Part shown: positions 14,623-40,191 of the stretch, piece after piece
How the letters are laid out: every line of letters starts with the position of its first letter
How positions within the stretch are numbered: position 1 is the first letter of the stretch
NCBI RefSeq assembly: GCF_006716185.1
Contig: NZ_VFOP01000001.1
Location: forward strand, 2,666,001-2,730,000
Origin: Ornithinicoccus hortensis
GTDB lineage: Bacteria > Actinomycetota > Actinomycetes > Actinomycetales > Dermatophilaceae
Direction of reading: 5' to 3'
DNA: 64,000 bases
Notes under the pieces: generated by a model
Seen by the model: the letters and a program-made list of their open reading frames with translations, nothing else
What the model was told of the DNA's origin: nothing
The model's database searches: none
Made by a program: the position numbers and the translations under genes

Positions 14623-15690
14623 TCATCCACTGGTGAGGACCTCGGACACGTCGAACGACACGGGCTGCTCCAACTGGGCGTAGGTGCAGCTCGCCGGCTC
14701 CCGGTCGGGGCGCCAGCGCACGAACTGTGCGGTGTGTCGGAACCGCGCCCCCTCCAGGTAGTCGTAGCGGGCCTCGACCACGAGCTCGGGACGCAACGGG
14801 ACGAAGGACAGGTCCTTGCCGGCGTTCCACCGGCTGGTCTCGTTCTTCCGGGGCGTGCGCTCCCCCTCCAGGTGGGCGGCCCAGTTCCACGGGTGGTCCT
14901 CGAAGTCCGTCACCAGCTCCTGCAACTCGGTGAACAGCTCCTTGCGGCGCGCCATCGGGAAGGACCCGATCACCCCGACGCTGGCCAGGCTCCCCTCCTC
15001 GTCGTAGAGACCGAGCAACAACGACCCGATCGCATCCGGTGCCGACTTGTGGACCCGGTAGCCGGCGACCACGCAGTCGGCGGTCCGCACGTGCTTGATC
15101 TTGGACAGCACCCGCTTGTCGGGTTGGTAGGTGCCGGCGGGGTCCTTGGCGATCAACCCGTCCAGGCCGGCCCCTTCGAACTGCTCGAACCAGCGTTGCG
15201 CCACCTCGGTGTCCCGGGTGAGCGGGGTCAGGTGGACCGGTGGCGCCACGTCGGCGAAGGCCTCCTCCAACCGTGCCCGGCGCTCCGAGAGCGGCCGTCC
15301 GGTGAGGTCCTCGTCGCCCAGGGCGAGCAGGTCGAAGGCCACGAAGCTGACCGGCGTCTCCGAGGCGAGCTTGCGCACGCGAGACTCGGCGGGGTGGATC
15401 CGCTGCTGGAGCGCCTCGAAGTCGAGCCGGTTGGCCTCCGGGTCCGCGACCACGATCTCCCCGTCGACGACGGCCCGCTCCGGGAAGCTGGCCAGCACCG
15501 CCTCCACGAGCTCGGGAAAGTAGCGGGTCATCGGTCGCTCGTTGCGAGAGCCGATCTCGACCTCGTCCCCGTCGCGGAAGATGATCGAGCGAAAGCCGTC
15601 CCACTTGGGCTCGTAGAACTGGTCGGGCGGGATCCCCTTCACCGGCTTGGCCAGCATCGGCTTCACAGGCGGCATCACGGGCAGGTCCAT
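14623..15690 (-). CDS. ligC: ATP-dependent DNA ligase, LigC type
   Basis: The 355-residue enzyme has the adenylation domain of ATP-dependent ligases, with the nucleotidyl-accepting Lys29 in EPKWDGFR, GSRNERPMTRYFPE (motif Ia), VDGEIVV (motif III), FVAFDLLAL (motif IIIa), DGLIAKD (motif IV) and LSKIKHVR (motif V), plus an OB-fold from about 215. This compact form matches actinobacterial LigC rather than the multi-domain LigD. ATG at 15690 follows AGGAG. It lies five bases after a LigD-type polymerase gene, and together they give the split equivalent of a LigD repair enzyme. Confidence 0.92.
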   Translation of the reverse strand: MDLPVMPPVKPMLAKPVKGIPPDQFYEPKWDGFRSIIFRDGDEVEIGSRNERPMTRYFPELVEAVLASFPERAVVDGEIVVADPEANRLDFEALQQRIHPAESRVRKLASETPVSFVAFDLLALGDEDLTGRPLSERRARLEEAFADVAPPVHLTPLTRDTEVAQRWFEQFEGAGLDGLIAKDPAGTYQPDKRVLSKIKHVRTADCVVAGYRVHKSAPDAIGSLLLGLYDEEGSLASVGVIGSFPMARRKELFTELQELVTDFEDHPWNWAAHLEGERTPRKNETSRWNAGKDLSFVPLRPELVVEARYDYLEGARFRHTAQFVRWRPDREPASCTYAQLEQPVSFDVSEVLTSG

Positions 15691-26061: not shown

Positions 26062-26084
26062 ATATCTCATATGTGATCTACCAT
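26062..26084 (+). promoter_or_regulatory. Imperfect palindrome and -10 box upstream of the XRE-MurA gene
   Basis: ATATCTCATATGTGATCT (26062-26079) is an 18-base near-palindrome centred on CATATG, matching its own reverse complement at 14 of 18 positions. It directly abuts TACCAT (26079-26084), which is seven bases from the ATG at 26092. This AT-rich patch stands out against the GC-rich surroundings. It is a natural site for the XRE domain of the encoded protein. Confidence 0.6.
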
Positions 26085-26091
26085 GGTGGGT

Positions 26092-27621
26092 ATGACCGAG
26101 ACCTACCTGTCGCGCATTGGCAACCTCATCCGGGACGCCCGGCGACACAAGGAACTCACCCAGGCCGAGCTCGCCGGCCTGCTGGGGACCAGCCAGAGCG
26201 CCATCGCCCGGATCGAGCAGGGCAAGCAGAACCTCTCCCTGGAGATGCTCGCCCGGATCGGCGAGAGCCTGGACTCCGAGATCGTCTCCGTCGGCAGCGC
26301 CGTCCCGCAGAACCTGCGGATCACCGGTGGGGTGAAACTGTCCGGCGAGATCGACGTGCGCACCTCCAAGAACGCCGCCGTCGCGCTGCTGTGCGCCTCG
26401 TTGCTCAACAAGGGCCGGACCACGCTGCGCAACCTGGCGCGGATCGAGGAGGTCAACCGGATCACCGAGGTCCTGACCAGCCTCGGTTTCAAGATCCGCT
26501 GGCTCGGGGAGAGCAACGACCTGGAGATCGTGCCGCCAGCCAAGATCGACCTGGCCGCGATCGACGAGGCGGCCGCCCGGCGCACCCGGACCATCATCAT
26601 GTTCCTCGGCCCGCTGCTGCACCGGTTCGACAACTTCGAGCTGCCGTATGCCGGGGGGTGCGACCTCGGCACCCGCACCGTCGAGCCGCACATGACCGCG
26701 CTGCGCCAGTTCGGCGTGGACGTCACGGCCACCCACGGCTCCTACCACGCCACGGTCGACGCCTCCCGCCGCCCGACCCGGCCGATCGTGCTCACCGAGC
26801 GCGGCGACACGGTCACCGAGAACGTGCTGCTCGCCGCGGCGCTGCACCCGGGCACCACGGTCATCCGTAACGCCTCCTCCAACTACATGGTCCAGGACCT
26901 GTGCGTCTTCCTGCGCACCCTGGGCGTGCAGATCGAGGGCATCGGCACCACCACGCTGAAGGTCACCGGCGTGGAGGAGATCGACATGGACGTGGAGTAC
27001 TCCCCGTCCGAGGACCCGATCGAGGCGATGAGCCTGCTGGCCGCCGGCGTCGTCACCGGCAGCGAGATCACCATCAAGCGGGTGCCGATCGAGTTCATGG
27101 AGATCGAGCTCGCGGTGCTCGACACGATGGGGCTGCAGTACGAGCTGAGCGAGGAGTACACCTCCGCCAACGGTTTCACCCGCCTGGTCGACCTGCGCAC
27201 CATCCCCGGTCCCCTCAAGGCGCCGCTGGACAAGATCCACCCGCTGCCCTTCCCCGGGCTGAACATCGACAACCTGCCCTTCTTCGCGATCATCGCCGCG
27301 TGCGCCGAGGGCTCGAGCATGATCCACGACTGGGTCTACGAGAACCGCGCCATCTACCTCACCGAGCTCACCACGCTGGGCGCCAAGGTGCACCTGATGG
27401 ACCCGCACCGAGTGATGGTGGAGGGCCCGACCAAGTGGCGTGCCGGCGAGATCATGTGTCCGCCTGCGCTGCGTCCGGGCGTCGTGATCCTGCTCGCGAT
27501 GCTCGCCGCCCCCGGCGTATCGGTCCTGCGCAACGTCTATGTGATCAACCGCGGCTACGAGGACCTGGCCACCCGCCTGAACAACCTCGGCGCCAGCATC
27601 CAGACCTTCCGCGACATCTGA
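26092..27621 (+). CDS. MurA-like UDP-GlcNAc enolpyruvyltransferase with N-terminal XRE helix-turn-helix
   Basis: The 509-residue protein begins with a Cro/XRE DNA-binding domain (about 8-65: LIRDARRHKELTQAELAGLL, TSQSAIARIEQGKQN). A full enolpyruvyltransferase domain follows. MurA residues are kept: Lys93 (TSKNAA), the active-site Cys190 (AGGCDLGTRTVEPHM), Asp in FPGLNIDNLPFF, and Arg in LRPGVVILLAML. The usual TDxQA context is altered to IDNLP. It may make UDP-GlcNAc-enolpyruvate or sense it to regulate genes. ATG at 26092 is preferred because the ATG at 26083 overlaps the -10 box. Confidence 0.85.
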   Translation: MTETYLSRIGNLIRDARRHKELTQAELAGLLGTSQSAIARIEQGKQNLSLEMLARIGESLDSEIVSVGSAVPQNLRITGGVKLSGEIDVRTSKNAAVALLCASLLNKGRTTLRNLARIEEVNRITEVLTSLGFKIRWLGESNDLEIVPPAKIDLAAIDEAAARRTRTIIMFLGPLLHRFDNFELPYAGGCDLGTRTVEPHMTALRQFGVDVTATHGSYHATVDASRRPTRPIVLTERGDTVTENVLLAAALHPGTTVIRNASSNYMVQDLCVFLRTLGVQIEGIGTTTLKVTGVEEIDMDVEYSPSEDPIEAMSLLAAGVVTGSEITIKRVPIEFMEIELAVLDTMGLQYELSEEYTSANGFTRLVDLRTIPGPLKAPLDKIHPLPFPGLNIDNLPFFAIIAACAEGSSMIHDWVYENRAIYLTELTTLGAKVHLMDPHRVMVEGPTKWRAGEIMCPPALRPGVVILLAMLAAPGVSVLRNVYVINRGYEDLATRLNNLGASIQTFRDI

Positions 27622-27636: not shown

Positions 27637-27724
27637 GACCGGACGCGTGAGCGGGCGGCGTTCCACCCCGACCGGACGCGTGAGCGGGCGGTTCTAAACG
27701 GCCACCGAACGCGCGATCTGGCGG
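27637..27724 (+). repeat. Intergenic 33-bp-period repeat array A (three units)
   Basis: Three copies of a 21-base core begin (at the ACCGG/ACCGA base) at 27638, 27671 and 27704, exactly 33 bases apart, with variable 12-base spacers. The first two cores are identical (ACCGGACGCGTGAGCGGGCG); the third diverges. The array fills the gap between the XRE-MurA stop and the GDPD gene. The same family is seen at 28567-28719 in inverse orientation and at 40026-40191. Confidence 0.9.
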
Positions 27725-27763
27725 CCAGAGGCGCCGCAGCGCTAGCCACGGCCGAGATTCGGG

Positions 27764-27769
27764 TAGTTT
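27764..27769 (+). promoter_or_regulatory. -10 box of a leaderless promoter
   Basis: TAGTTT lies seven bases before the GTG at 27777. No ribosome site is visible for this GTG or for the TTG at 27768, which overlaps the box. Confidence 0.5.
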
Positions 27770-27776
27770 GAGTGAC

Positions 27777-28553
27777 GTGGCAGCCACCCCATACCTGGAG
27801 CACGACGGCCCGATTCCGCTGGCGCACCGTGGCTTCTCGCAGGAGGGGCTGGAGAACTCGATGTCGGCCTTCGCAGCAGCCGTCGCCCTGGGATACCACT
27901 ACGTCGAGACCGACGTGCACGCAACCCAGGACGGTGTGCTCGTGGCCTTCCACGACACCCGCCTGGACCGGGTCACCGACCGCACCGGCTCGATCACCGG
28001 TATGCCGTGGGCCGAGGTGAGCGGTGCCCGCATCGGGGGTGTCGAGCCCGTCCCCCGGCTCGAGGAGATCCTCGACACGTGGCCCGAGCTGCGGGTCAAC
28101 ATCGACATCAAGACCTCGGGCGCCATCGTGCCGCTGGTCCGGGCGATCGAGCGGACGAACGCCCACGACAGGGTCTGTGTCACCTCCTTCTCCGACCACC
28201 GGCGCGCGGCTGCCCTACGCCGGCTCAGCCGACCGGTCGCCACGTCGGCCGGCCAGCGCACGGTGGCCCGGTTCCTGGCCGCCGCCCGGCTCCCCCGACG
28301 ACGCGAAGCCGCACTGGCGCGGGTGTTGCGCGGCGTGGATTGCCTCCAGGTCCCCGAGGATTTCGGCCGCATCAAGGTAGTCAACGCGGCGACCCTGGAG
28401 GCGGCCCACGCCGTGGGCGTCCAGGTCCACGTCTGGACGGTGAACGACGACGCCGAAATGCACCGGTTGCTGGACCTGGGCGTTGACGGACTCGTCAGCG
28501 ACCGGGCCGATCTACTCAAGCAGGTCTTGCAGGAACGCGGCACCTGGTCCTGA
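27777..28553 (+). CDS. Glycerophosphodiester phosphodiesterase
   Basis: The 258-residue TIM-barrel enzyme hydrolyses glycerophosphodiesters to glycerol-3-phosphate and an alcohol. The GDPD signature is complete: LAHRGFSQEGLENSMSAF, YVETDVHATQDGVLVAFHD (metal ligands Glu, Asp and catalytic His) and NIDIKTSG. The C-terminus VHVWTVNDDAEMHRLLDLGVDGLVSD is typical. There is no signal peptide, so it is cytoplasmic. The GTG start fits a leaderless promoter. The gene is flanked by repeat array A in direct orientation and array B in inverse orientation. Confidence 0.95.
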   Translation: MAATPYLEHDGPIPLAHRGFSQEGLENSMSAFAAAVALGYHYVETDVHATQDGVLVAFHDTRLDRVTDRTGSITGMPWAEVSGARIGGVEPVPRLEEILDTWPELRVNIDIKTSGAIVPLVRAIERTNAHDRVCVTSFSDHRRAAALRRLSRPVATSAGQRTVARFLAAARLPRRREAALARVLRGVDCLQVPEDFGRIKVVNAATLEAAHAVGVQVHVWTVNDDAEMHRLLDLGVDGLVSDRADLLKQVLQERGTWS

Positions 28554-28566
28554 CCTGCGGGACCGG

Positions 28567-28719
28567 CCGCCCGGTCGCGCGCTCGGTCGGGGGTGGAGGC
28601 CGCCAGGTCAGACGTCCGGTCGGGGGTCGAGACCGCCAGGTCAGACGTCCGGTGGGGGTGAATGGCCGACAGGTCAGACGTCTGGTGGGGTGTGGAGGCC
28701 GCCATCTCACGCGTCCGGT
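28567..28719 (-). repeat. Intergenic 33-bp-period repeat array B (five units, inverse orientation)
   Basis: Five copies of the 21-base core occupy 28567-28587, 28600-28620, 28633-28653, 28666-28686 and 28699-28719, each exactly 33 bases after the last. Read on the minus strand they follow ACCGGACGYSTGASCTGGCG with some deviation, and 12-base spacers such as GGTCGGGGGTGG on the plus strand. The array lies between the GDPD stop and the nrdA promoter. The plus strand happens to be open in one frame with an 11-residue PPGQTSGxG periodicity, but nothing else suggests coding. Confidence 0.9.
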
Positions 28720-28743
28720 CGGGAAATGGGGGGCGGGAGGGGG

Positions 28744-28759
28744 ACACAAGATGTGGGGG
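28744..28759 (+). promoter_or_regulatory. NrdR box 1
   Basis: The 16 bases starting ACACAAGATGTG agree with the NrdR consensus acaCwAtATaTwgtgt in its left half and core. The box lies immediately upstream of the -35 element, with its centre 32 bases from box 2. Confidence 0.7.
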
Positions 28760-28760
28760 G

Positions 28761-28789
28761 TTACATCGGTGTGATTTCGTGTATATAGT
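28761..28789 (+). promoter_or_regulatory. nrdAB promoter
   Basis: TTACAT (28761-28766) and TATAGT (28784-28789) are 17 bases apart. Transcription should begin near 28796, just before the cobalamin riboswitch. The -10 box is inside NrdR box 2. Confidence 0.7.
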
Positions 28790-28791
28790 GG
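28776..28791 (+). promoter_or_regulatory. NrdR box 2
   Basis: The sequence GTGTATATAGTGG fits the right half of the NrdR consensus and overlaps the -10 box. The 32-base centre-to-centre distance from box 1 equals three helical turns, the spacing used by NrdR. Repression of nrdAB when dATP is high is the expected outcome. Confidence 0.75.
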
Positions 28792-28805
28792 CGAACGCAG
28801 CTGGT

Positions 28806-28990
28806 TCGGCCGCTTCCCTTCGGGGAGGTGGTCGTCGCAAGAGGGAACCCGGTGAGATTCCGGGACTGCCCCGCAGCGGTGAACGGGAACGACCTTCGCC
28901 ACGAAGCACTGGACCATCCAGGTCCGGGAAGCGGCGAACAGTAGGCGACCTGGCAACAGGTCTGGCCCGTGAGTCCGAAGACCTGCCAGT
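28806..28990 (+). ncRNA. Cobalamin (AdoCbl) riboswitch
   Basis: The leader holds the B12-box family landmarks in order: AAGAGGGAACCCGGTGAGA, TTCCGGGACTGCCCCGCAG, CGGTGAACGGGAACGACC, GCCACGAAGCACTGG, a CCGGGAAG segment, and the 3' element GAGTCCGAAGACCTGCC. It should bind adenosylcobalamin and switch off the downstream nrdAB when B12 is available. Between it and the ATG at 29141 are GC-rich inverted segments (for example CGCCGTC with GACGGCG at 28994-29013, and GCGGGACG with CGTCCCGC) that can serve as the expression platform. Confidence 0.93.
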
Positions 28991-29140
28991 GCACCGCCGT
29001 CCCGACGACGGCGGTGGTCCGTTGACCGCGCGGGACGGTCAGGGCCCGACGCGACCACCTGCGGGCGGTCAGGCGTCCCGCCCTCCCCTCCCCCGGCATA
29101 CGGGCTCGCTTTCGCATCCGAGTTCACGAGGGGTGAACCG

Positions 29141-31744
29141 ATGAGCATCACGGTCATCAAGCGCGACGGCACGCGCACGGCATACGACGGGTACGAGGTC
29201 GCCCGGTCCATCGAGGCGGCGGCCCGCGGTCTGGACGACGCGATCACCCGCACCACCCAGCTGCAGTCCGAGCTGGAGATCACGCTGTTCGACGGCATCA
29301 CCAGCGAGGAGCTGGACCAGGCCGTCATCCAGGTGGCGTTGCAGAACGTCAAGGACGACCCGGCCTACGACACGATCGCGGCCCGGCTGCTGGTCAAGTC
29401 GCTCTACAAGCAGGTCTTCGGGGAGACCCACGACCTGTTCGGCGACGTCGACCCCAGCACCATCGCCAAGCTGCACCGCGCGGCGTTCCCCGGCTACATC
29501 GAGGCCGGCGTCCGGTCCGGGCAACTGGACACCCGCCTGACCGAGGTCTTCGACCTGGAGCGGCTGGCCGAGGCCCTCGACCCCTCCCGGGACGACCTGC
29601 TCCGGTTCATCGGCGTGCAGACCATGCGGGTGCGCTACCTCCTGGACGGCGCCGACGGCTCGCCGCTGGAGGTGCCACAGTTCTTCTGGATGCGGGTTGC
29701 CATGGGGCTCTCGCTCACCGAGGACGACGCCACGAGCGCCGCGATCAGCTTCTACGACAAGATGTCCCGCCTCGAGTACCTGGCCGCCGGGTCCACCCTG
29801 GTCAACGCCGGCACCTCCTACAGCCAGCTGTCCAACTGCTTCGTGATGCAGATGGAGGACGACATCGAGCACATCGCCAAGAGCGTGCGCGACGTCATGT
29901 GGCTCACCAAGGGCACCGGCGGCATCGGCCTGTCCGTCTCCAAGCTCCGCTCCGAGGGCAGCCCGATCCGGTCCAACAACACCTCCTCGACCGGCCCGAT
30001 CCCGTTCATGCACACCATCGACTCCACGCTGCGCGCGGTGAGCCGTGGTGGCAAGAAGTTCGGGGCGCTGTGCTTCTACATGGAGAACTGGCACCTCGAC
30101 TTCGCCCAGTTCCTCGACCTGCGGCAGAACTCCGGCGACCCCTACCGCCGCACCCGCACCGCCAACACCGCCGTCTGGATCTCCGACGAGTTCATGAAGC
30201 GGGTCGAGCGGGACGACGAGTGGTACCTCTTCGACCCGCTCGAGACCCCCGATCTGGTCGAGGCCACCGGGGCCGAGTTCAGCAGGCTGTATGCCGAGTA
30301 CGTCACCCGGGCGAGGGCCGGGGAGTTGCGGCACCGCCGGATGCGGGCCCGCGAGCAGTTCCGGGCCATCCTGATCTCCCTGCAGACCACCAGCCACCCG
30401 TGGCTGACCTGGAAGGACACCATCAACACCCGGGCGCTGAACCAGAACACCGGGACGATCCACCTGTCCAACCTGTGCACCGAGATCTGCCTGCCGCAGG
30501 ACCGGGACAACACCGCAGTCTGCAACCTGGCCTCGGTCAACCTGTCCCGGCACGTCACCGGCCGGCGGGGGCAGGCCCGGGTCGACTGGGACCGGCTCGC
30601 CGAGTCCACCCGGCTGGCGGTGCGCCAGCTGGACAACCTGATCGACATCACGATCAGCTCGGTGCCGGAGTCGGAGCGGTCCAACGAGCTCAACCGGGCG
30701 CTCGGTCTCGGCGTGATGGGCTTCACCGACATCGTGGAGCGCTTCGGCTTCTCCTACGAGTCCGAGCAGGCCTACGAGCTGATGGACCAGATCATGGAGT
30801 TCGTCTCCTGGCACGCGATCGACGCCAGCTCGGACCTGGCCCGCGAACGGGGTGCCTACCCCAACTTCGCCGGCAGCCGGTGGAGCGAGGGCCTGGTGCC
30901 GGTCGACTCCCTCGATCTGCTGGAGGCCGACCGCGGCACCCCCGTCGACGTCGACCGGACCACCCGGCTCGACTGGGACGCGCTGCGGGCCAAGGTGGCC
31001 GGCGGCATCCGCAACTCCACCCTGATGGCGATCGCCCCGACCGCCTCGATCGGTCTCGTGGCGGGCACCACCCCCGGGCTGGACCCGCAGTTCAGCCAGA
31101 TCTTCAGCCGGTCCACCAGCTCGGGCAAGTTCCTGGAGGTCAACCGCAACCTGGTCCAGGACCTGCAGGACGCGGGGCTGTGGGAGCAGGTGCGCGAGGA
31201 GCTGCTGCGCCACCAGGGCGACCTGTCCAAGGTCGAGGGCGTGCCCGCCGACCTCCAGGAGATCTACCGGACCTCCTTCCAGCTCTCCCCCTACGCCTTC
31301 CTGCACGTCGCGGCCCGCGCCCAGAAGTGGATCGACCAGGCGATCAGCCGCAACATCTACCTGGCCAGCCGCGACCTCGGCGACATGGTCGAGCTCTACT
31401 CCGCCGCCTGGCGGATGGGGGTCAAGACGACCTACTACCTGCACATGATGCCGCGCCACCAGGCCGAGCAGTCCACCGTGCGGGTCAACAAGGCCGAGGA
31501 GGCGGGCGGTAACGGCGCGCCGCGTCGCGGGTTCGGCGGCGTCGCCCGGGCGGGCGCTTCCGGGACGGCTCCTGCCGCGCGCGGGTTCGGTGCCGTGGCT
31601 CCGGCCCCGACCGTCCCCGCCACCGCTCCGGCCCCGGAACCGGACCTGACCCCGGACCCCGACACGACCCAGCTCGAGCTGATCGACGGACAGGCCTGCC
31701 CGATCGACCCGCAGGAGCGCCTCCAGTGCGACTCCTGCCAGTGA
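29141..31744 (+). CDS. nrdA: Ribonucleoside-diphosphate reductase, class I large subunit
   Basis: This 867-residue enzyme reduces ribonucleotides to deoxyribonucleotides. It has an N-terminal ATP-cone (about 1-95, ITVIKRDGTRTAYDGYEV) for dATP feedback. The first catalytic Cys is in LSNCFVM, the thiyl site is NLCTEI, the partner Cys is in AVCNLASVN, and TTYYLHMM provides the Tyr-Tyr radical relay. A Pro/Ala-rich linker leads to the C-terminal CDSCQ tail that receives electrons. GAGGGG lies seven bases before the ATG. Transcription is controlled by two NrdR boxes and a cobalamin riboswitch. Confidence 0.97.
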   Translation: MSITVIKRDGTRTAYDGYEVARSIEAAARGLDDAITRTTQLQSELEITLFDGITSEELDQAVIQVALQNVKDDPAYDTIAARLLVKSLYKQVFGETHDLFGDVDPSTIAKLHRAAFPGYIEAGVRSGQLDTRLTEVFDLERLAEALDPSRDDLLRFIGVQTMRVRYLLDGADGSPLEVPQFFWMRVAMGLSLTEDDATSAAISFYDKMSRLEYLAAGSTLVNAGTSYSQLSNCFVMQMEDDIEHIAKSVRDVMWLTKGTGGIGLSVSKLRSEGSPIRSNNTSSTGPIPFMHTIDSTLRAVSRGGKKFGALCFYMENWHLDFAQFLDLRQNSGDPYRRTRTANTAVWISDEFMKRVERDDEWYLFDPLETPDLVEATGAEFSRLYAEYVTRARAGELRHRRMRAREQFRAILISLQTTSHPWLTWKDTINTRALNQNTGTIHLSNLCTEICLPQDRDNTAVCNLASVNLSRHVTGRRGQARVDWDRLAESTRLAVRQLDNLIDITISSVPESERSNELNRALGLGVMGFTDIVERFGFSYESEQAYELMDQIMEFVSWHAIDASSDLARERGAYPNFAGSRWSEGLVPVDSLDLLEADRGTPVDVDRTTRLDWDALRAKVAGGIRNSTLMAIAPTASIGLVAGTTPGLDPQFSQIFSRSTSSGKFLEVNRNLVQDLQDAGLWEQVREELLRHQGDLSKVEGVPADLQEIYRTSFQLSPYAFLHVAARAQKWIDQAISRNIYLASRDLGDMVELYSAAWRMGVKTTYYLHMMPRHQAEQSTVRVNKAEEAGGNGAPRRGFGGVARAGASGTAPAARGFGAVAPAPTVPATAPAPEPDLTPDPDTTQLELIDGQACPIDPQERLQCDSCQ

Positions 31745-31778
31745 GCCCCACGCCCCGGCATACCCGAAAGGACCTGAC

Positions 31779-32810
31779 ATGAGCATTGACACCACTCCCA
31801 CCACCGCTCAGACCGGCACCGGATCGCCCCGCGGCATCCTCGGCACCGGGATCCAGGAGGGCCTGCTCCTGAAGCCGGTCACCTACCCGTGGGCCTACGA
31901 TCTCTACAACCAGGCGGTCGCCAACACCTGGTTCCCCAACGAGGTCCAGCTCGGGGAGGACCTGGGCGACTTCGAGCGGATGACCGACGACGAGCGGCAC
32001 GCCCTGACCTTCCTGATGAGCTACTTCAACCCCAACGAGCTGCTGGTCAACAAGGCGCTCGCGTTCGGCGTCTACCCCTACGTCAACGCGGCCGAGTGCC
32101 ACCTCTACCTGGCCAAGCAGATGTGGGAGGAGGCCAACCACTGCATGGCCTTCGAGTACGTCCTGGAGACTTTCCCGGTGGACCGGGAGCAGGCCTACGA
32201 GTCGCACGTGACGGTCCCCTCGATGGCGGCCAAGGAGGAGTTCGAGGTCCGCTACATCCGTCGGATGACCGAGCAGACCCTGGACATCAGCACGGTGGAG
32301 GGCAAGCAGGACTTCGTGCGGAACCTGGTGGCCTACAACGTGATCCTGGAGGGCATCTGGTTCTACTCCGGCTTCATGGTGGCGCTGAGCTTCCGGCAGC
32401 GGAACCTGCTGCGCAACTTCGGCAGCCTGATCGACTGGATCGTGCGCGACGAGAGCCTGCACCTGAAGTTCGGGATCAACCTGATCCTGACCGTGCTCGA
32501 GGAGAACCCGGAGATCGCCACCGAGGAGTTCGCCGAGGAGATCCGGCAGATGGTGCTCGACGGGGTCGCGATGGAGGAGCAGTACAACCGCGACCTGCTG
32601 CCGGGCGGGATCCTGGGGCTGAACGCCGACTACATCAACCAGTACGTGAAGTACCTGGCCGACCGGCGCCTGGAGGAGCTCGGCTTCGAGCCGCACTACC
32701 GGGTGGCCAACCCGGCCAAGTGGATGGCCGCGGCCAACGACACCCTGGAGCTGGTGAACTTCTTCGAGTCGACGAACACCTCCTACGAGGTGAACGCCCG
32801 CGCCCACTGA
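31779..32810 (+). CDS. nrdB: Ribonucleotide reductase small subunit, predicted class Ic (Mn/Fe)
   Basis: The 343-residue R2 protein generates the oxidising equivalent for NrdA. Metal ligands are Glu87 (NPNELLVN), Glu118 and His121 (WEEANH), the Glu in VILEGIWFY, and the Glu and His in RDESLHLKFG. The residue at the normal radical-tyrosine position is Phe125, and the first ligand is Glu rather than Asp; this pair is the signature of class Ic enzymes such as Chlamydia R2, which use a Mn/Fe cofactor. It follows nrdA by 34 bases with a GAAAGGA ribosome site. Confidence 0.95.
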   Translation: MSIDTTPTTAQTGTGSPRGILGTGIQEGLLLKPVTYPWAYDLYNQAVANTWFPNEVQLGEDLGDFERMTDDERHALTFLMSYFNPNELLVNKALAFGVYPYVNAAECHLYLAKQMWEEANHCMAFEYVLETFPVDREQAYESHVTVPSMAAKEEFEVRYIRRMTEQTLDISTVEGKQDFVRNLVAYNVILEGIWFYSGFMVALSFRQRNLLRNFGSLIDWIVRDESLHLKFGINLILTVLEENPEIATEEFAEEIRQMVLDGVAMEEQYNRDLLPGGILGLNADYINQYVKYLADRRLEELGFEPHYRVANPAKWMAAANDTLELVNFFESTNTSYEVNARAH

Positions 32811-32849
32811 CCGGACGGACCGGACGGGCCGGCCGCCCCGACGATTCAC

Positions 32850-33728
32850 TCAGGCCAGGGCGGTCTCGATGATCTCCCGGGCCGGGTCGTGGACCGCCTG
32901 GGCGGCCGTCCGGCCGGTCACCGCCAGGTAGCGGTCGACGAGGCGGTTCCCCACGGCATACCCGGCGCCGGTCGGCAACCCCACCGGGGTCCCGCCGAAC
33001 GCGGTGGCGGCCTCGTCCCCGAGCACCCACGCCCCGAAGTTCTCCATCCCGGTGACGCCCAGGCCCGTGACCACCTTGGCGAAGACCTCGTCGTCGGCCA
33101 GGTGCGGCACCCCAATGCGGGTATGGCCGAGCTCGTCGCCGTACAGCTGGCGGGCGAAGGCGTCGGCCAGCCCCTCGGAGACGACGTGGTCGCCAACGGT
33201 CACCGTGGCCGGGTCCCAGTCGGCGCCGCCGGGAGCGAACCGCACGTTGTGGTGCAGCTCGTGCACCGCCGTCGCCTCCACCCTGGCCAGCACCTCTTCG
33301 AACGGCCAGAAGGTGAGCGCGAGGTAGCCGGTGACGCTGCCGTTGCCGGTCATCCCGAGCGCGTGGTTCATGAAGTAACGGTTCGCCGGGTCGCCCAGCA
33401 GGATGTATGCCGTGATGTCGGGGATCGCGAAGCCCGGCACGGCCTCCTGCAGGGCCCCGAGGCCGCCCTCGAGGGCCCGGCCGACCCTGTCCCAGACGTC
33501 CGCCCCGTGCATCGCGGCCAGCGCCTCCAGGCACCGTCCCTCGTCCCGGTCCAGCGGGAACCCGCCGGTCATCCGGTGCATCGCCACGAGGTCCGGCTCA
33601 CCGGGGAAGTACCGGTACAGACCCGCGGCGGGCTCGGCCATCCGGCGCAGCAGCTCGGGCCGGTCGGCCGCGGGTGCGCCGAGGATGTCGTGGGTCTGCC
33701 GGTAGGTGTCCAGCACCGTGATCGTCAT
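32850..33728 (-). CDS. DUF2268 putative zinc metalloprotease
   Basis: The 292-residue protein contains HELHHNVRF, an HExxH zinc motif, with a second Glu in VSEGLADAFARQLYG further on, matching DUF2268 proteins. There is no signal peptide. The ATG at 33728 lies six to seven bases after a TACCGT -10 box in a MerR-type promoter, implying a leaderless, inducible mRNA; a start at 33746 would precede the transcription start. The inducer and the MerR regulator are not in the window. Confidence 0.85.
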   Translation of the reverse strand: MTITVLDTYRQTHDILGAPAADRPELLRRMAEPAAGLYRYFPGEPDLVAMHRMTGGFPLDRDEGRCLEALAAMHGADVWDRVGRALEGGLGALQEAVPGFAIPDITAYILLGDPANRYFMNHALGMTGNGSVTGYLALTFWPFEEVLARVEATAVHELHHNVRFAPGGADWDPATVTVGDHVVSEGLADAFARQLYGDELGHTRIGVPHLADDEVFAKVVTGLGVTGMENFGAWVLGDEAATAFGGTPVGLPTGAGYAVGNRLVDRYLAVTGRTAAQAVHDPAREIIETALA

Positions 33729-33735
33729 GCCGGCC

Positions 33736-33766
33736 ACGGTAGGCATTGACGCTGCGTCAGGGTCAA
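33736..33766 (-). promoter_or_regulatory. MerR-type promoter with 19-bp spacer and dyad operator
   Basis: On the minus strand TTGACC (33766-33761) and TACCGT (33741-33736) are separated by 19 bases, the over-long spacer typical of MerR-activated promoters. The spacer contains the perfect dyad GACGC-A-GCGTC, and TTGAC/GTCAA arms flank it. The promoter reads into the DUF2268 gene. Confidence 0.75.
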
Positions 33767-33781
33767 GGTGTTTTGTCGGCC

Positions 33782-33787
33782 TACCCT
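33782..33787 (+). promoter_or_regulatory. -10 box of a leaderless promoter
   Basis: TACCCT is six bases before the ATG at 33794 with no ribosome site. It points away from the MerR-type promoter just upstream. Confidence 0.5.
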
Positions 33788-33793
33788 GGACCC

Positions 33794-33976
33794 ATGAGCG
33801 AGAAGGTCTTCACCCCCGGGTCCGAGGTCGTCACGCCGCGCGGACGCGGCACCGTGGTCGACGTGCGGGCGACGGCCTCGGGCAAGTTCGTGATCGGGGT
33901 CGAGGTGGAGGACGGGGAGGTCAGGTACTTCGTCGAGGGGGCGCTGCGGGGCAATCCGCCGGCTGGGACCCGGTGA
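33794..33976 (+). CDS. Small beta-rich protein of unknown function
   Basis: The 60-residue protein (FTPGSEVVTPRGRGTVVDV, KFVIGVEVEDGEVRYF) looks like a single SH3-like or KOW-type barrel, similar in style to the N-terminal domain of CarD. There is no signal or membrane segment. It is translated from a leaderless pattern and is convergent with the DUF6541 gene, four bases apart. Function is unknown. Confidence 0.65.
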   Translation: MSEKVFTPGSEVVTPRGRGTVVDVRATASGKFVIGVEVEDGEVRYFVEGALRGNPPAGTR

Positions 33977-33980
33977 GCGG

Positions 33981-35987
33981 CTACCGGTCGCAGCCGGTGA
34001 ACCGCCAGATCTGGGCCTGACCGCCCTCGTCGACCAGCTCGCCGAAGCCCTCCCGGTGCGGGTCGACGTCCCGCAGCCCGGGCGTGGTCTCCTCCCACTT
34101 GCCGCCCTCCTCGAAGGTGAGGTCGTCGGTGTAGACGTGGGTCACCCCGAGGGCGTTGACGGCCTCGCAGACGGCCGGGTCCTTCCACCACCCCGTGGCG
34201 GGCCCGTCGGCGGAGGCGGGCCGGTCGAAGTCGGTCTGCAGCAGCACCCGCTCGGGCGAGTCGGCGATGCCGGTCAGCTGCGGGTAGACCACGTCCACCC
34301 CGCTGCGGGCCAGCAGGTAGGGCGAGCCGTTGATCGGCTCCCCCAGCACCACGGCGTCCTCGGGCAGCGTCTCCCCCGCCCGGTCGATCATCGCCAGCTC
34401 GTCGTAGGAGTCGATCATGGTGCCCCAGGCGATCGGCCAGGTGGAGTAGACCGAGGACATCACCGTCGTCTGGCTGGGCCACCGCAGCCCGAAGGTCGCC
34501 ACGACTACCACGACGGCCAGGGCGATCCCGCCCCGGACGATCCCCACCGAGAACCGGTCGGCCACCTTGCGCGCCACCAGCGACGCGCCGCCGGCTGCCA
34601 GCACCACGGCCGGGATGACCAGGAGCTGGTTGAGCCGGGATGCCTGGGTGTACCAGAAGCCGGCGAGCACCCGCAGTGGGTTCTCCGGCGGCCCGGCGGC
34701 GAGCAGGGTGAGCAGCCAGGTCGCCACCAGCGCCACCACCAGCCAACGGGCGTGGGTGTTGCGGATGGTGATCCACACCCCGACGAAGACCAGCGCGGTG
34801 ACCACGATGTTGAACGACTGGAACGGGTAGACGTAGATCAGCGGGTGGTCGATCAGGGTCGAGCCGATGGCGCCCCAGTAGTTCGGCGACCCGCCCCGCT
34901 GGTAGCCCACGATCGCCTGCAAGGGCGGGAAATCTAGCAGGAAGAGGGTCAGGCCCACCACGCCGGTCACGATCACGACAGCCGCCACGGCGACCGGCAC
35001 CTTGTGGCCCCGGCGCCAGAAGCGACGTCCCTGCCGGGCCAGCAGCACGGTGAGCAGCGGCGCCGCCAGCAGCGCGATCGAGAACAGGCCCGACCCGTGG
35101 GCCAGCACGACACCGGACAGCGCCCCGAGGAAGCCCAGCCCGTGGGCCAGGTGCAGCCGCCAGGGCTGGTCGCCCCGCAGCGCCACGATCAGCAGCGCCA
35201 GGGTGCCCGGCAGGCACGCCACGCTGACCGCGAACGGCCACACCCCCAGCATCGAGACGGCGATCGCAGGGAAGGCGACGTAGGTGGCGGCGAGCAGCGG
35301 GGTGAAGATCACCGGCAGCGGCCGGCCGGGCCAGACGACCCGGCTCAGCGCCACCAGGCCACCCATCCAGATGACCGTGCCGATCACGATGGAGGAGGCG
35401 TTGGCGGCCTCGGTCACGCCCTCGAAGCCGGGCACGACGGCCACGATGCTGTGCCAGACGGTCGGGTAGTACGGCGCGATCGTGTCGGCATACAGCGGCG
35501 CCAGGCCACCCAGGCTGGAGGCGTTGCCGAACTCACGGATCACCCACAGCGCGTTCAGGTGGTAGACGCCGTCCCAGGCCTGCAGCGGCATGTCGGCCCG
35601 GCCGATGCCGGTCATCATCGCCGCCGCCAGGATGCCCCCGCCGACCAGCGAGCTCAGCGCGAGCCAGCGCCGCTCCCGCATCGACATCCGGTGCTCACCG
35701 GCGATCCGTTCGCCCGCCGGGTCGTTCCAGGTGCCCAGCCGCCAGCCGAGCAGCGCCGCGATCCCGACCAGGACGAGGCACCCGCCCAGGAAGGTCCACA
35801 CCGTCCACCGCAGCCCGATCAGGTCGTACCCGATCGCCAGGATCCCCGCCGCGCCCGAGGTCAGGGCCGGTCCGGCGCCCCAGGCGACCAGGCCGCGGAC
35901 CCCGAGGGCCCGCAGCACGGCATACCCCGGCAGGACCCACAGGGCGGCCATCAGGACGAGGCCGGGCAGCACCACCCACCAAGTCAT
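33981..35987 (-). CDS. DUF6541-family polytopic membrane protein
   Basis: The 668-residue protein has about 12 to 14 membrane helices and a C-terminal extracytoplasmic domain from about residue 530. The layout, including an acidic first loop (MPLQAWDGVYHLNALWVI) and HGSG in a later loop, resembles GT-C-type glycosyltransferases and matches actinobacterial DUF6541 proteins. Its ATG overlaps the stop of the nucleotide-sugar dehydrogenase (ATGA), so a role in envelope glycan synthesis is likely. The acceptor and donor are unknown. Confidence 0.8.
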   Translation of the reverse strand: MTWWVVLPGLVLMAALWVLPGYAVLRALGVRGLVAWGAGPALTSGAAGILAIGYDLIGLRWTVWTFLGGCLVLVGIAALLGWRLGTWNDPAGERIAGEHRMSMRERRWLALSSLVGGGILAAAMMTGIGRADMPLQAWDGVYHLNALWVIREFGNASSLGGLAPLYADTIAPYYPTVWHSIVAVVPGFEGVTEAANASSIVIGTVIWMGGLVALSRVVWPGRPLPVIFTPLLAATYVAFPAIAVSMLGVWPFAVSVACLPGTLALLIVALRGDQPWRLHLAHGLGFLGALSGVVLAHGSGLFSIALLAAPLLTVLLARQGRRFWRRGHKVPVAVAAVVIVTGVVGLTLFLLDFPPLQAIVGYQRGGSPNYWGAIGSTLIDHPLIYVYPFQSFNIVVTALVFVGVWITIRNTHARWLVVALVATWLLTLLAAGPPENPLRVLAGFWYTQASRLNQLLVIPAVVLAAGGASLVARKVADRFSVGIVRGGIALAVVVVVATFGLRWPSQTTVMSSVYSTWPIAWGTMIDSYDELAMIDRAGETLPEDAVVLGEPINGSPYLLARSGVDVVYPQLTGIADSPERVLLQTDFDRPASADGPATGWWKDPAVCEAVNALGVTHVYTDDLTFEEGGKWEETTPGLRDVDPHREGFGELVDEGGQAQIWRFTGCDR

Positions 35988-37297
35988 GAGGTGACCGGTT
36001 CACCCCCGCCGATGGTGAGTCGGGGGGTGCCGGTGAAGTTGTCCGGGTCGGTGATCCGGCGGCCGTCCAGCAGCAGCCGAAGGCCGGGCAGGTCGGCGGC
36101 GGTCAGGGTGGCGTACTCGGGGTGGTCGGCCTGGACGATCGCGACGTCGACCGGCTCGCCCAGGTGGTAGGGGGTCCAGCCGTATGCCGACAGCTCCTCG
36201 TCGGTGTACATCGGGTCGTGCACGGCCACCGTCGCGCCGCGGGAGTCCAGCGCGGTCACCGTGGGGAACACCCCGGAGAAGGCGGTCTCCTTGACCTTGC
36301 CGCGGTAGGACGCACCCAGGACCACGACCCGCAACCCGGACAGGTCACCCAGCAGCGCCTCGGCACGGGCCACGGCATACTCGGGCATCGCGGCGTTCGC
36401 CGCGCGGGCGGTGGAGACCACGGAGGCGTCCGGGTCGGTCGACAGGTAGAGCCGCGGGTAGACCGGGATGCAGTGCCCGCCGACCGCGATCCCCGGCTGG
36501 TGGATGTGCGAGAACGGCTGGGAGTTGCACGCCTCGATCACCTTGCGCACGTCGATGCCGGCCTTGTCGGCGAAGACCGCGAACTGGTTGGCCAGCCCGA
36601 TGTTGACGTCCCGGTAGGTCGTCTCGGCCAGCTTGGCCATCTCGGCGGCCTCGGCGCTGCCCATGTCCCACACCCCGTTCGGGCGGGGCAGGTCCTGGCG
36701 CTCGTCGAAGGACAGCACCGACTCGTAGAACTCCACCGCGGCGGCCGTGCCCGCCTCGGTCAGGCCCCCGACCAGCTTGGGGTAGGCCCGCAGGTCGGCG
36801 AAGACCCGCCCGGTGAGTACCCGCTCCGGGGAGAACACTAGGTGGAAGCCTTCGGCGAAGCCCTCGGTCAGGCCGGAGATCTCCTCGATCATCGGCTTCC
36901 ACCGCCCCCGGGTGGTCCCGACCGGCAGCGTGGTCTCGTAGGACACCAGCGTCCCCGGGGTCAGGTGCGCCGCCAGGCTCTGCGTGGCCTCGTCCATCCA
37001 GCCGAAGTCCGGCGCTCCGGTCTCCTCGTCCACGAACAGCGGCACCACGAGCACCACCGCGTCCGCACCCGGGATCGCCTCGGCATACTCCGTCGTCGCC
37101 GACAACCGCCCGGCGGGGACCAGCTCGGACAGCTTCTCCTGCAGGTGCGCCTCCCCCGGGAACGGCTCGGTGCCCCGGTTGACCAGGTCCACCACCTGCG
37201 CGTTCACGTCGACCCCCACGACCTCGTGGCCAGCGTCGGCGAACTGCACCGCCAACGGCAACCCGATCTTGCCCAGCGCGACAACGGCGATCTTCAT
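35984..37297 (-). CDS. Nucleotide-sugar 6-dehydrogenase (UDP-ManNAc/UDP-GlcNAc type)
   Basis: The 437-residue enzyme oxidises C6 of a UDP-hexosamine to the uronic acid using NAD. The N-terminal Rossmann motif is VALGKIGLPLAVQFADAGH, SPERVLTG is the family helix, the catalytic Lys/Asn region is EMAKLAETTYRDVNIGLANQ, and the catalytic Cys lies in GGHCIPVYP. This pattern is that of WecC/WbpA rather than UDP-glucose dehydrogenase. AGGAG precedes the ATG. Upstream by 46 bases is a GT4 gene; downstream the DUF6541 gene overlaps. Confidence 0.92.
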   Translation of the reverse strand: MKIAVVALGKIGLPLAVQFADAGHEVVGVDVNAQVVDLVNRGTEPFPGEAHLQEKLSELVPAGRLSATTEYAEAIPGADAVVLVVPLFVDEETGAPDFGWMDEATQSLAAHLTPGTLVSYETTLPVGTTRGRWKPMIEEISGLTEGFAEGFHLVFSPERVLTGRVFADLRAYPKLVGGLTEAGTAAAVEFYESVLSFDERQDLPRPNGVWDMGSAEAAEMAKLAETTYRDVNIGLANQFAVFADKAGIDVRKVIEACNSQPFSHIHQPGIAVGGHCIPVYPRLYLSTDPDASVVSTARAANAAMPEYAVARAEALLGDLSGLRVVVLGASYRGKVKETAFSGVFPTVTALDSRGATVAVHDPMYTDEELSAYGWTPYHLGEPVDVAIVQADHPEYATLTAADLPGLRLLLDGRRITDPDNFTGTPRLTIGGGEPVTS

Positions 37298-37343
37298 GAC
37301 ACTCCTGTGCTCCGAGATGTGCGGTGGTCCGAGGATATGCGGG

Positions 37344-38468
37344 TTAGCTGGTCCGCACCGAAACGGCGCGCTCGTATGCCGCCTGGTAGCCCCGCGCGAC
37401 GGCGTCCACCGAGAAGCGGGGCCCGACGGTGTCCGAGATGTCCTGCGCACTGAGCCCCTCGGTGCGGGTCAGCACCGCCTCGACGGCATCGGCGTAGGCC
37501 CCCGCCGTCTGCTCGTCGACGGTCTGGCCGACGGCCGGGTCGATGTACTCCCCCTGGCCCCCGGTCGAGCCGACGACCACCGGCCGGCCCGCCACCAGCG
37601 CCTCGGCGCAGGAGACGAAGAAGTTGTCCCCCCGGGTCGGCCCGAGGAACAGGTGCGCCCGGGTCAGCGCGTCGAGCACCCCGGCGCCGTCCAGCGACCC
37701 GGTGAGCCGGACCCGGTCGGCGATGTCGAGCAACCGGGCCCGCTCCACGATCCGCGGGCGCAGCGGCCCCTCGCCGACGAAGCTGATCCGGGCATCGTGC
37801 CCCCGCACCAGGAGCTCGGCGACGACGTCCACGGCCAGCACCGGGTCCTTGCGCTCGATCAGGCCGCCGACGCTGACCAGCCGCAGCCGGCGCCGGTCGG
37901 CCGACCGCGGCGGCACCGGGTCGGGCACCGGGACGATGCACGGGACCACGCTCACCGGTGCGTCGCCCCGGACCGCCCGGATCGGCTCCGCGAGGTAGTC
38001 GCAGACGGCGGTCACCACGTCCGGCCGCCGGTGCAGCAGGCGCAGCGCCGGCAGGGCACGGCGCCAGCTCGCGGGCAGCGTCTGCGGGGCGGTTAGCCCG
38101 GACCAGTGCTCGGTGTGCACCCAGGGGGCGTCCGGTCGCCACCAGGCGAGTGGGAGCAGGGTGGAGAAGGCCATCGTGTGGACCACGTCAGCGCCGCGGC
38201 CCATCGCCCTCAGCAGCCGACCCGCGGCGGCGATCTGGCGGGGGTCCGAGGTCGCCATCGGGATCCTGGTCACCGGCAGGCCCTGCACCTCGTGCTGCTC
38301 GGACCCGTCCCGGGCCCACTCCTGCACCCACTGGTGCGGCGGGCACAGGTGCACCACCGCCACGTCGTGCCCGAGACCGGCGATCGCCAGGGCGTCCTTG
38401 ACCACGAAGGCACCCGTCGAGGACCCGTTCGGGGTGGGGAACCAGGTGGTCACCGCCAGGACTCGCAT
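37344..38468 (-). CDS. GT4-family glycosyltransferase
   Basis: The 374-residue GT-B enzyme begins MRVLAVTTWFPTPNGSSTGAFV, with an early Gly/Ser-rich loop. The C-terminal donor domain has LVSVGGLIERKDP, SFVGEGPLR and an E-x7-E-like EALVAGRPVVVGSTGGQGEYI. It should move a sugar from a nucleotide donor to a lipid-linked or polysaccharide acceptor at the membrane's inner face. It is the first gene of a three-gene operon with the dehydrogenase and DUF6541 protein. Confidence 0.92.
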   Translation of the reverse strand: MRVLAVTTWFPTPNGSSTGAFVVKDALAIAGLGHDVAVVHLCPPHQWVQEWARDGSEQHEVQGLPVTRIPMATSDPRQIAAAGRLLRAMGRGADVVHTMAFSTLLPLAWWRPDAPWVHTEHWSGLTAPQTLPASWRRALPALRLLHRRPDVVTAVCDYLAEPIRAVRGDAPVSVVPCIVPVPDPVPPRSADRRRLRLVSVGGLIERKDPVLAVDVVAELLVRGHDARISFVGEGPLRPRIVERARLLDIADRVRLTGSLDGAGVLDALTRAHLFLGPTRGDNFFVSCAEALVAGRPVVVGSTGGQGEYIDPAVGQTVDEQTAGAYADAVEAVLTRTEGLSAQDISDTVGPRFSVDAVARGYQAAYERAVSVRTS

Positions 38469-38602
38469 GGTCGCAACCTACCCGCCGGCGCCCGCCCGCC
38501 GGAGCGCACCGGACCACATACGGCCGGGTGTGGGCAAACACACAGCGTGAACGGCGCGGACTCGCTGGTCTGCCGCCGGTCGGCTGCCTAGAGTGCTGCC
38601 CC

Positions 38603-39940
38603 ATGAGTCGCGAGCCGTCCCTGGTCCCCAGCACCGCCTACCTCGACCAGCTCGAGACCGAGACCGCGGCCAAGCTGCGGACCGCCGTGGCCGAGCCCTC
38701 GCCGTTCGCCGGGGCACCGCTGGAGGTGTCCGCCGCCGTGGAGGCCTCCGCCGAGTCGCTGCGCGACGACCTCACCCACATCGTGCAGACCCTGCACGCG
38801 GACCCCGAGACCGCCTACCAGGAGCACCGGAGTGCGGCGACCCTGGTCGAGGCGCTGGCCGGGCACGGGATCGAGGCGACGCTGGGGGTGCACGGGCTGG
38901 ACACGGCCTTCCGGGCCGAGATCGGTGACCCCGCGAGCGGGTCCACCATCGCGATCCTCGCCGAGTACGACGCGCTCCCCGAGGTCGGGCACGCGTGCGG
39001 GCACAACGTCATCGCCGCGACCGGCGTCGGGGCCTTCCTCGCCCTGGCGGCGACCCTGCGGGAGCGCCCGGACGCCTTCCCCGGACGGGTCGTGCTGCTC
39101 GGCACCCCTGCCGAGGAGGGGCACACCGGCAAGGAGCTCCTGGCCCGCGAGGGCGCCTTCGACGACATCGACGCGGCGATCATGGTCCACCCCTACGGGT
39201 ACGACCTGGCCGACCAGGTGTGGCTCGGCCGGCGGCTGCTGCGCTGGGAGTTCTCCGGCAGGGCCGCACACGCCTCCGCCCAGCCCTTCATGGGCCGCAA
39301 CGCCCTCGATGCCGCCACCCTCGCCTACCAGGCGGTGGGCCTGCTCCGGCAGCAGCTGCCGCCGGCCGACCGGGTGCACGCGGTCATCACCGAAGGAGGC
39401 ACCCGCCCCAGCGTGATCACCGAGAAGGCGGTCGTGCAGCTCTATGCCCGGTCCAAGTACGTCGAGACCCTCAAGGACCTGAGCGACCGGCTGGACGACA
39501 TCGCCCACGGTGCCGCGCTGATGACCGGCACCAGCGTGGAGGTGTCCTGGGACGCCTTCCCGCCGTCCCTGCCGATCCGCACCAACAACGCGCTGACCGG
39601 CCGGTGGGTGGAGGCCCAGCGCCGCCGCGGCCGCGACCCGCTGCCGCTGGGCGTGGTGTCGGAGACGATCGCTGCGTCCACCGACTTCGGCAACGTCAGC
39701 TTCCGGGTGCCGGGGATCCACCCGTTGATCAAGATCGCGCCCCCGGAGATGGCCCTGCACACCCGTGACTTCGCGGCCGCGGCCGCCACCCGTGAGGCCG
39801 AGGACGGCGCACTCGACGGTGCCATCGGCCTGGCCCTGACGGCGCTGGACTACCTGACCGACAGCGACCTGCAGCGCGCCGTCACCCAGGAGTTCGCCGA
39901 CCAAGGCGGGGCACTGGACGTCCCGACCTACTTCGACTGA
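38603..39940 (+). CDS. M20-family amidohydrolase/peptidase
   Basis: The 445-residue enzyme has the M20 zinc motif GHACGHN, with the second metal site in PAEEGHTGKELLA and MVHPYGYD, and the dimerisation domain from about 200 (FSGRAAHASAQPFMGRNALDA). It resembles the aminobenzoyl-glutamate/ACY1L2-like branch. The ATG follows TAGAGT by eight bases, a possible leaderless start. Substrate is an amide of a small amino acid, not identifiable further. It is divergent from the GT4 gene and shows no link to its neighbours. Confidence 0.88.
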   Translation: MSREPSLVPSTAYLDQLETETAAKLRTAVAEPSPFAGAPLEVSAAVEASAESLRDDLTHIVQTLHADPETAYQEHRSAATLVEALAGHGIEATLGVHGLDTAFRAEIGDPASGSTIAILAEYDALPEVGHACGHNVIAATGVGAFLALAATLRERPDAFPGRVVLLGTPAEEGHTGKELLAREGAFDDIDAAIMVHPYGYDLADQVWLGRRLLRWEFSGRAAHASAQPFMGRNALDAATLAYQAVGLLRQQLPPADRVHAVITEGGTRPSVITEKAVVQLYARSKYVETLKDLSDRLDDIAHGAALMTGTSVEVSWDAFPPSLPIRTNNALTGRWVEAQRRRGRDPLPLGVVSETIAASTDFGNVSFRVPGIHPLIKIAPPEMALHTRDFAAAAATREAEDGALDGAIGLALTALDYLTDSDLQRAVTQEFADQGGALDVPTYFD

Positions 39941-40025
39941 GCATCCGCCGATGATGGCCAGGTCCTCGACCTGCTGACCGACCCGATCGTCCGGAGGGAG
40001 GACGGCAATGAGCCTCCCCACCTGC

Positions 40026-40191
40026 ACCGGACGCGCGACCTGGCGGCGTTTCCCCTGCACCGGACGTCCCGTCTGGCGCTCCCAGCCGGCACCGAACGCG
40101 TGACCTGGCGATCCACCCGCCTGAGCGCCCGTCCCCAACTCCCGACGGGGCGTCCGGTCGGGGTCAAAGCCCGCCCGCTCACGCGTCCGGT
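40026..40191. repeat. Intergenic 33-bp-period repeat array C (three direct and two inverse units)
   Basis: Direct cores start at 40026, 40059 and 40091 (steps of 33 and 32), then two inverse cores end at 40158 and 40191 (step 33). Core and period are the same as arrays A and B. The opposing halves can fold into a large cruciform or hairpin. The array fills most of the gap between the M20 gene and whiB7; the remaining 40192-40354 is the whiB7 leader. Confidence 0.88.

Follow-up and report, generated by a model that had tools for sequence, protein, structure and literature searches.

Facing, helically phased repeat arrays in Ornithinicoccus hortensis and related genomes are associated with genes for a predicted AbiEi/Vsr-like protein

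Intergenic tandem repeats at many loci are known in bacteria, such as the cyanobacterial long tandem repeats (LTRR) and the MIRU of mycobacteria. Another kind, the REP/REPIN repeats and their RAYT enzymes, is described in PMC3733652 and PMC3116915 as many short extragenic repeats in head-to-head pairs, often less than 20 bp from gene 3' ends; some repeats extend over stop codons or lie within genes, and the enzyme gene is linked to them. In the AbiE type IV toxin-antitoxin systems, the antitoxin AbiEi binds to tandem sets of 23-bp repeats (PMC7319586). Here, we analyzed a 64-kb stretch (the window; positions 2,666,001-2,730,000) of the one-contig genome of Ornithinicoccus hortensis (G000; 3,935,242 bp), in which an original prediction had described a repeat family with a 33-bp period at three intergenic loci. 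We found that this family forms short arrays that face each other, that these are dispersed over the genome, mostly outside genes, and that a facing pair also brackets a gene for a protein with predicted AbiEi-like and nuclease-like parts.

The arrays of G000 and of a second species of the genus, G010, resemble REPIN/RAYT systems in being extragenic, in forming facing doublets near gene 3' ends and in having a linked enzyme-like gene. They differ from them in having arms composed of 2 to 13 phased units, in that the six single units tested are not hairpins (folded as single-stranded DNA, they gave z-scores from -0.68 to 0.66) and in the product of the bracketed gene, which is an AbiEi/Vsr-like protein. 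A RAYT system was rejected, the Y1 (IS200-like) transposase PF01797 being found in 0 of 31 genomes of the genus and in 5 of 14 control genomes. The N-terminal winged helix and AbiEi core of the bracketed protein recall AbiE systems, but the protein has an extra nuclease-like domain, the arrays lie on both sides of the gene as well as genome-wide, and five of the six nusB/pyrR brackets lack a nucleotidyltransferase partner. Unlike the genes of Vsr and of the EDxHD homing endonuclease I-Bth0305I, the gene lies between repeat arrays; its nuclease role is a prediction from the modelled fold, and junctions without the gene exist in the genus. LTRR and MIRU are not known to follow a facing rule, to mark their outer units or to bracket a particular gene family. 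Our searches of open PMC papers gave no description of the array family, for whose core no described relative had been known to the original prediction either, or of array-bracketed AbiEi genes.

The repeat unit consists of a conserved core of about 21 bp, ACCGGACGCGTGAGCTGGCGG, with a C-rich spacer ahead of it. A scan with a 21-bp profile recovered exactly 13 units at the three predicted loci and none elsewhere in the window, and confirmed that all steps measure 33 bp except a single one of 32 (40059 to 40091). These units form four arrays (Table 1). The original prediction had not recorded their strand opposition, array 2 and the units at 40138-40191 being on the minus strand. Array 2, whose outermost unit is the one at 28699-28719, faces array 1 across 842 nt, and arrays 3 and 4 face each other across 26 bp. 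The arms of the latter pair (40014-40200) fold into one long imperfect hairpin (z -5.97), as expected because facing arms form an inverted repeat. Two single arrays folded as RNA no better than shuffled sequences (z -0.65 and -0.62), and the arrays had no Rfam match at gathering scores.

Over the whole G000 genome, the core with at most 3 mismatches occurred 201 times, versus 17 for a reversed control pattern. A two-unit profile of 62 nt made from 64 dimers (R1) gave at least 138 matches at E<=0.01, clustering to 58 arrays in 39 regions; genome profile searches scored the best 150 candidates per genome, and their counts are thus lower bounds. These regions were read (37 fetched and two in the window) with genes called by a home-made codon-score finder. 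They contained 217 units, 215 in the 58 arrays plus two isolated singles. The genome-wide check proposed by the original prediction did not refute it: 147 of 157 steps measured 33 bp (nine were of 32 bp and one of 31) and 202 of the 217 units overlapped no called gene. Most arrays had 3 (23 arrays) or 4 units (19), the others 2 (5), 5 (6) or 6 (5), and units were more similar within an array than between arrays (0.72 vs 0.65). A 1.2-Mb part of the genome (about 0.94-2.12 Mb) carried just five arrays in three regions, versus 53 elsewhere; G010 showed no such gap.

Close arrays follow a facing rule. G000 neighbours less than 5 kb apart were ordered plus then minus in 19 of 19 cases, with gaps of 16-3287 bp, and none pointed in the same direction or diverged; 20 of the 58 arrays were unpaired, which bears on a comparison with MITEs, defined by terminal inverted repeats at both ends and a target duplication. 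The outer unit is marked by a G at position -1, found in 54 of 58 first units versus 52 of 151 readable inner units (157 in all) and preceded in the first units by a stretch from -10 to -2 that is rich in C and poor in G. The profile score also dropped inward along the arrays, from 26.9 to 21.7 bits. Facing partners were no more similar than other arrays at the unit level (0.640 vs 0.646) and slightly more so at the array level (0.709 vs 0.690), so there was no sign of a conserved hairpin. We rejected a conserved RNA or cruciform hairpin, the facing arms being without covariation and neither two single arrays nor six units folding.

The 56 G000 arrays outside gene calls lay in convergent (23), tandem (27) and divergent (6) contexts, the corresponding numbers for all gaps above 60 nt in the sequences read, array-bearing ones included, being 27, 76 and 47. 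In 39 of the 56, the outer gene pointed at the array, with a median distance from stop to first core of 12 nt (16 nt between the murA stop at 27621 and array 1), and in some cases the stop codon overlapped the unit as TGACCGG. Orientation fixed by transcription was rejected, the bias in tandem contexts being weak (16 vs 11 in G000, 25 vs 15 in G010).

R1 matched 14 of the 31 genomes of the genus, mostly weakly. With a second profile built mainly from G010 arrays (R2), we obtained at least 154 matches in a single-genome search of G010 and, across the genus, at least 133 in G023, 115 in G019, 49 in G008, 25 in G018 and 17 in G006. G010 had 67 arrays in 52 loci, one of them double-counted (hence 66), with 169 steps of 32 bp and 37 of 33 bp. 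Close neighbours faced each other in 13 of 13 cases, a G at -1 was present in 62 of 67 first units versus 77 of 206 inner ones, and 4 of 60 contexts were divergent. The facing rule and the outer-unit mark thus persist in G010 although the core and the step have changed. Conservation of array positions between G000 and G010 was rejected, few being shared when 89 and 111 flanking genes were compared, the nusB/pyrR bracket among them. Outside the genus (14 of 38 genomes sampled), R1 gave two weak matches near E 8e-4, which on reading were 12-bp repeats in one case (L042) and contained no unit in the other (L043).

Between nusB and pyrR, a facing pair surrounds a homologous AbiEi-like gene in both G000, about 363 kb from the window, and G010. 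We located this junction (L318-L336) in 30 of the 31 genomes and read 20 regions; that of G023 reaches a contig end. The AbiEi-like gene was present in G000, G010, G019, G007, G040 and G041; G008 retained a remnant of it and G005 a fragment. Other genes lay between nusB and pyrR in G001, G002, G004, G006, G008, G013, G014, G015, G016, G018 and G038. In another 11 genomes (G009, G011, G012, G017, G020, G021, G022, G039, G042, G043, G044) a distance of 87-207 bp separated the aligned nusB and pyrR ends, and in G003 one of 267 bp. With differing genes or nothing inside, the junction is an insertion hot spot in the genus. The arrays at this site had periods of 33 bp (G000), 32 bp (G010, G019), 22 bp (G007, G040), 23 bp (G041, on one side) and 34/46 bp (G005), and their units had GACCG or GACTG in common. 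They enclosed one gene in G019, G007, G040 and G041 and one main open reading frame in G010. In the G000 bracket, a nucleotidyltransferase gene of another Pfam family (PF10706, 2e-8; L068 4675-5343, minus strand) adjoins the AbiEi-like gene and recalls AbiEii partners; none was found in the other five brackets.

A profile from an alignment of six proteins (A3), searched against the 31 genomes, gave 27 rows at or above 211 bits in 19 genomes, the next score being 112.7 bits. We fetched 25 of these loci (without the second copy of G004 and one piece of G005), of which two were contig-end fragments, leaving 23 complete genes. According to TRF, tandem arrays lay on both sides of the gene at 19 loci and on one side at four, where the other side held 17, 40, 5 and 9 facing matches of the unit present and no same-direction match. 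Both sides were occupied in none of the 45 control loci (nitroreductase 0/11, CydDC 0/11, pyrR 0/23) and in one of five weaker paralogs (L361), whose two repeats did not face each other (0.50 vs 0.61). Single-sided repeats were found at two nitroreductase, four CydDC and one pyrR controls and at two paralogs including L361. Compared by sequence, the left and right arrays were in facing order at 17 of 19 gene loci (17 of 18 in the tally without G000, with a tie in G019).

These 23 loci occupy four chromosomal sites, nusB/pyrR holding three protein lineages, although the tree is weak in its deep branching. Periods of 32-33 bp characterized two clades (12 loci) and periods of 21-23 bp the others (11 loci). 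The A3 match ended at positions 358-360 in 11 of 11 members of the 21-23 group and at 338-339 in 9 of 12 members of the 32-33 group, the exceptions being G000 (356) as well as G043 and G040b, both of which continue across a TGA. Among the 12 genomes without the gene, nine had no R1 or R2 match, and G008, G006 and G018 had arrays (G008 also the gene remnant); among the 19 with the gene, 14 had at least one match and five none (G001, G012, G040, G041, G042), both models being tuned to one protein clade. Profiles made from single loci gave, for G007, two arrays facing each other within 40 kb of that genome far from the gene and three arrays in 400 kb of G010; for G012a, one array, in G012 only; for G012b, none in G012; and for G016, none in that genome, though other arrays occur there. 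A location of the family on plasmids or phages was rejected, as neither 72,556 plasmid records (E 1e-10) nor 50,697 phage records (E 1e-5) contained a match to the G010 protein.

PF13338 (AbiEi_4) scored above its cut-off in two of the four members scanned and below it in two, and the PADLOC AbiEi models matched all four members tested (1e-7 to 6e-21). NCBIfam had no fitting name for the family, and a sequence-profile search of the PDB gave no match at E 1. The AlphaFold model (pLDDT 81.6, pTM 0.71) was good in just one of five models. Its best Foldseek match was the AbiEi antitoxin 6y8q (1.4e-3), followed by Vsr at 0.24, and VIA-align scored 9.5 to AbiEi (residues 63-199), 9.5 to the catalytic domain of I-Bth0305I (204-321) and 9.4 to Vsr. 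The predicted fold suggests an AbiEi-like DNA-binding part, comprising a winged helix and the AbiEi core, that is fused to a Vsr/homing-endonuclease-like domain. Residues D240, E251, D253 and K257 were invariant in the A3 alignment, and we take them to fit a PD-(D/E)XK-type site, closer than Vsr/EDxHD.

One locus bears on array movement. Between two convergent genes at about 2.3525 Mb of G000 (L069 3382-3606), we found a chimeric copy of the murA 3' end and array 1. Its first part starts with the last 38 nt of murA and ends 10 nt into the first core (64 nt, 93.8%), and its second part carries, inverted, the array together with the flank downstream of it (119 nt, 92.4%). The locus is thus a copied array that has taken flanking DNA along and switched strand, as repair by template switching would produce, and it illustrates one way in which facing order can arise.

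Two G000 arrays lie in frame within genes, coding for 11-residue repeats in a nitroreductase-like protein (L055 4267-4353) and in the CydD-CydC linker (L059 3505-3624), both in linkers of variable length among homologs. In G010, 7 of 67 arrays were in gene calls, some with 32-bp steps. A protein-coding repeat (33 bp being 11 codons) was rejected, since most arrays lie outside genes and G010 has mostly 32-bp steps.

In the window, arrays 1 and 2 enclose a GDPD gene that also follows murA in congeners; it is thus native and not cargo, and we rejected the view of a facing pair as simply a mobile gene cassette. MurA was 89-91% identical to that of six Ornithinimicrobium records and of Ornithinicoccus halotolerans, which places the genus at Ornithinimicrobium or next to it. 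Just 3' of array 2, ahead of a large ribonucleotide-reductase-like gene, lies a cobalamin riboswitch (RF00174, 97.1 bits; 28785-29004, plus strand). Arrays of an unrelated family (family B; core about GCATTTTGATAnAGGTYTCGTACG, period 31-32, same layout, one facing pair in G010) lie directly behind the murA stop in O. murale and sp. F0845, at the site of the 33-bp family in G000. In a metagenome-assembled genome of Intrasporangiaceae (L096 11531-11708), the murA stop is directly followed by a 63-bp repeat in 2.8 copies, each unit of which contains an inverted repeat.

Table 1. Repeat arrays and adjoining genes in the window, and family B arrays in other loci.
Feature	Sequence	Position	Strand	Units and basis
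Array 1	window	27638..27724	+	3 units (27638, 27671, 27704); profile scan, 33-bp step
Array 2	window	28567..28719	-	5 units (28567-28587, 28600-28620, 28633-28653, 28666-28686, 28699-28719); profile scan
Array 3	window	40026..40111	+	3 units (40026, 40059, 40091); profile scan
Array 4	window	40138..40191	-	2 units (40138-40158, weak, 6 bits; 40171-40191); profile scan
HTH-MurA fusion gene	window	26083..27621	+	open reading frame; 3' end carries array 1
GDPD gene between arrays 1 and 2	window	27777..28553	+	PF03009 2.7e-44 (scanned from 27768)
Family B	L090	11533..11622		
Family B	L092	11530..11652		
Family B	L190	14466..14546 and 15172..15267		
Family B	L192	7277..7338		
Family B	L197	1528..1627		

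We favour, with moderate confidence, the reading that the arrays are helically phased binding sites of the AbiEi/Vsr-like protein, which would also spread them, the facing pair being the working unit. What we observed is the association of gene and arrays; binding, cutting and spread are inferred. That the arrays are likely sites of this protein follows from their helix-multiple periods, from the AbiEi-type domain encoded between them and from the AbiEi binding to 23-bp repeats reported in PMC7319586. A spreading system that would work like REPIN/RAYT, without being one and with unrelated parts, is suggested by the way in which close arrays face each other, by the mark on their outer unit, by their scatter behind genes and by the nuclease-like domain. 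The original prediction was partly supported. Its proposal of an array for a DNA-binding protein, made on account of the period, gains from the related periods of 21-23 and 32-34 bp (about two or three turns), from a period class that tracks protein clades and from the AbiEi-type gene found inside facing arrays of its own kind. It had missed the facing order, the mark on the outer unit and the likeness of the arrays to a repeat that spreads through the genome with the help of a gene acting in trans.

The units would be helix-phased sites for the AbiEi and Vsr/homing-endonuclease-like protein of the genus, and the gene between facing arrays of its own kind (nusB/pyrR in G000) would be the parent element. 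The protein may load from the outer unit, with its C-rich tract and G at -1, inward, and a pair of facing arrays would act together. As cuts are repaired, array sequence would be copied into them, and the arrays would thereby spread as non-autonomous copies. These would persist for the most part at the 3' ends of genes, the least harmful location, and would be kept similar within a species. More tentatively, and with slightly less than an even chance in our estimation, this would represent a new class of selfish system, in which a settled low-copy AbiEi-type nuclease gene in facing phased arrays mobilises non-autonomous facing arrays by cut-and-copy repair, protein clade and period (two or three turns) co-evolve, and different protein lineages come to occupy the same few sites (three lineages at nusB/pyrR).

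Alternatively, the arrays could belong to a type IV toxin-antitoxin system or to another system regulated by AbiEi, those flanking the gene being operators and the dispersed ones the regulon of a host regulator or decoys, without any mobility. AbiEi antitoxins indeed bind inverted 23-bp repeats, with 3 or 13 bp between them, in their own promoters (PMC7319586), and the PADLOC matches in four members and the nucleotidyltransferase gene inside the G000 bracket agree with such a system. We nevertheless consider it unlikely, given that the arrays flank the gene on both sides and follow many unrelated genes, rarely lying at promoters (divergent contexts 6/56 and 4/60), that the brackets of G019, G007, G040, G041 and G010 contain no toxin partner and that the protein has an additional nuclease-like domain.

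The arrays could also be 3' elements useful to the host (transcription terminators, insulators, or anchors of loops between facing arrays) and maintained by host selection, which would account for the short distance to stop codons, the many convergent contexts (23/56), the facing rule and the long inverted repeat where arrays are close. This seems improbable to us in view of the weak orientation bias in tandem contexts, of single arrays and units that do not fold, of facing arms without covariation, of the patchy presence among congeners and of the two G000 arrays in frame inside genes. Passive minisatellites, produced by chance tandem duplication and gene conversion and tolerated at gene 3' ends, would fit the likeness within arrays (0.72 vs 0.65), the location of the arrays where insertions harm least and the occurrence in congeners of family B, with a period of about 32 bp and an unrelated core. 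This last explanation appears very improbable, as it leaves unexplained the facing order of 32 out of 32 close pairs in two species, the G of the outer unit and the bracketing of 19 of 23 genes versus 0 of 45 controls.

If the reading that we favour is true, bacteria would have a second, independent route to REPIN-style genome colonisation, with an AbiEi and Vsr-like nuclease instead of a transposase and a site period set by the helix. It would suggest a possible role for AbiEi-nuclease fusions and provide natural protein-site pairs for studying specificity change, and it may account for other unexplained repeats behind actinobacterial genes.
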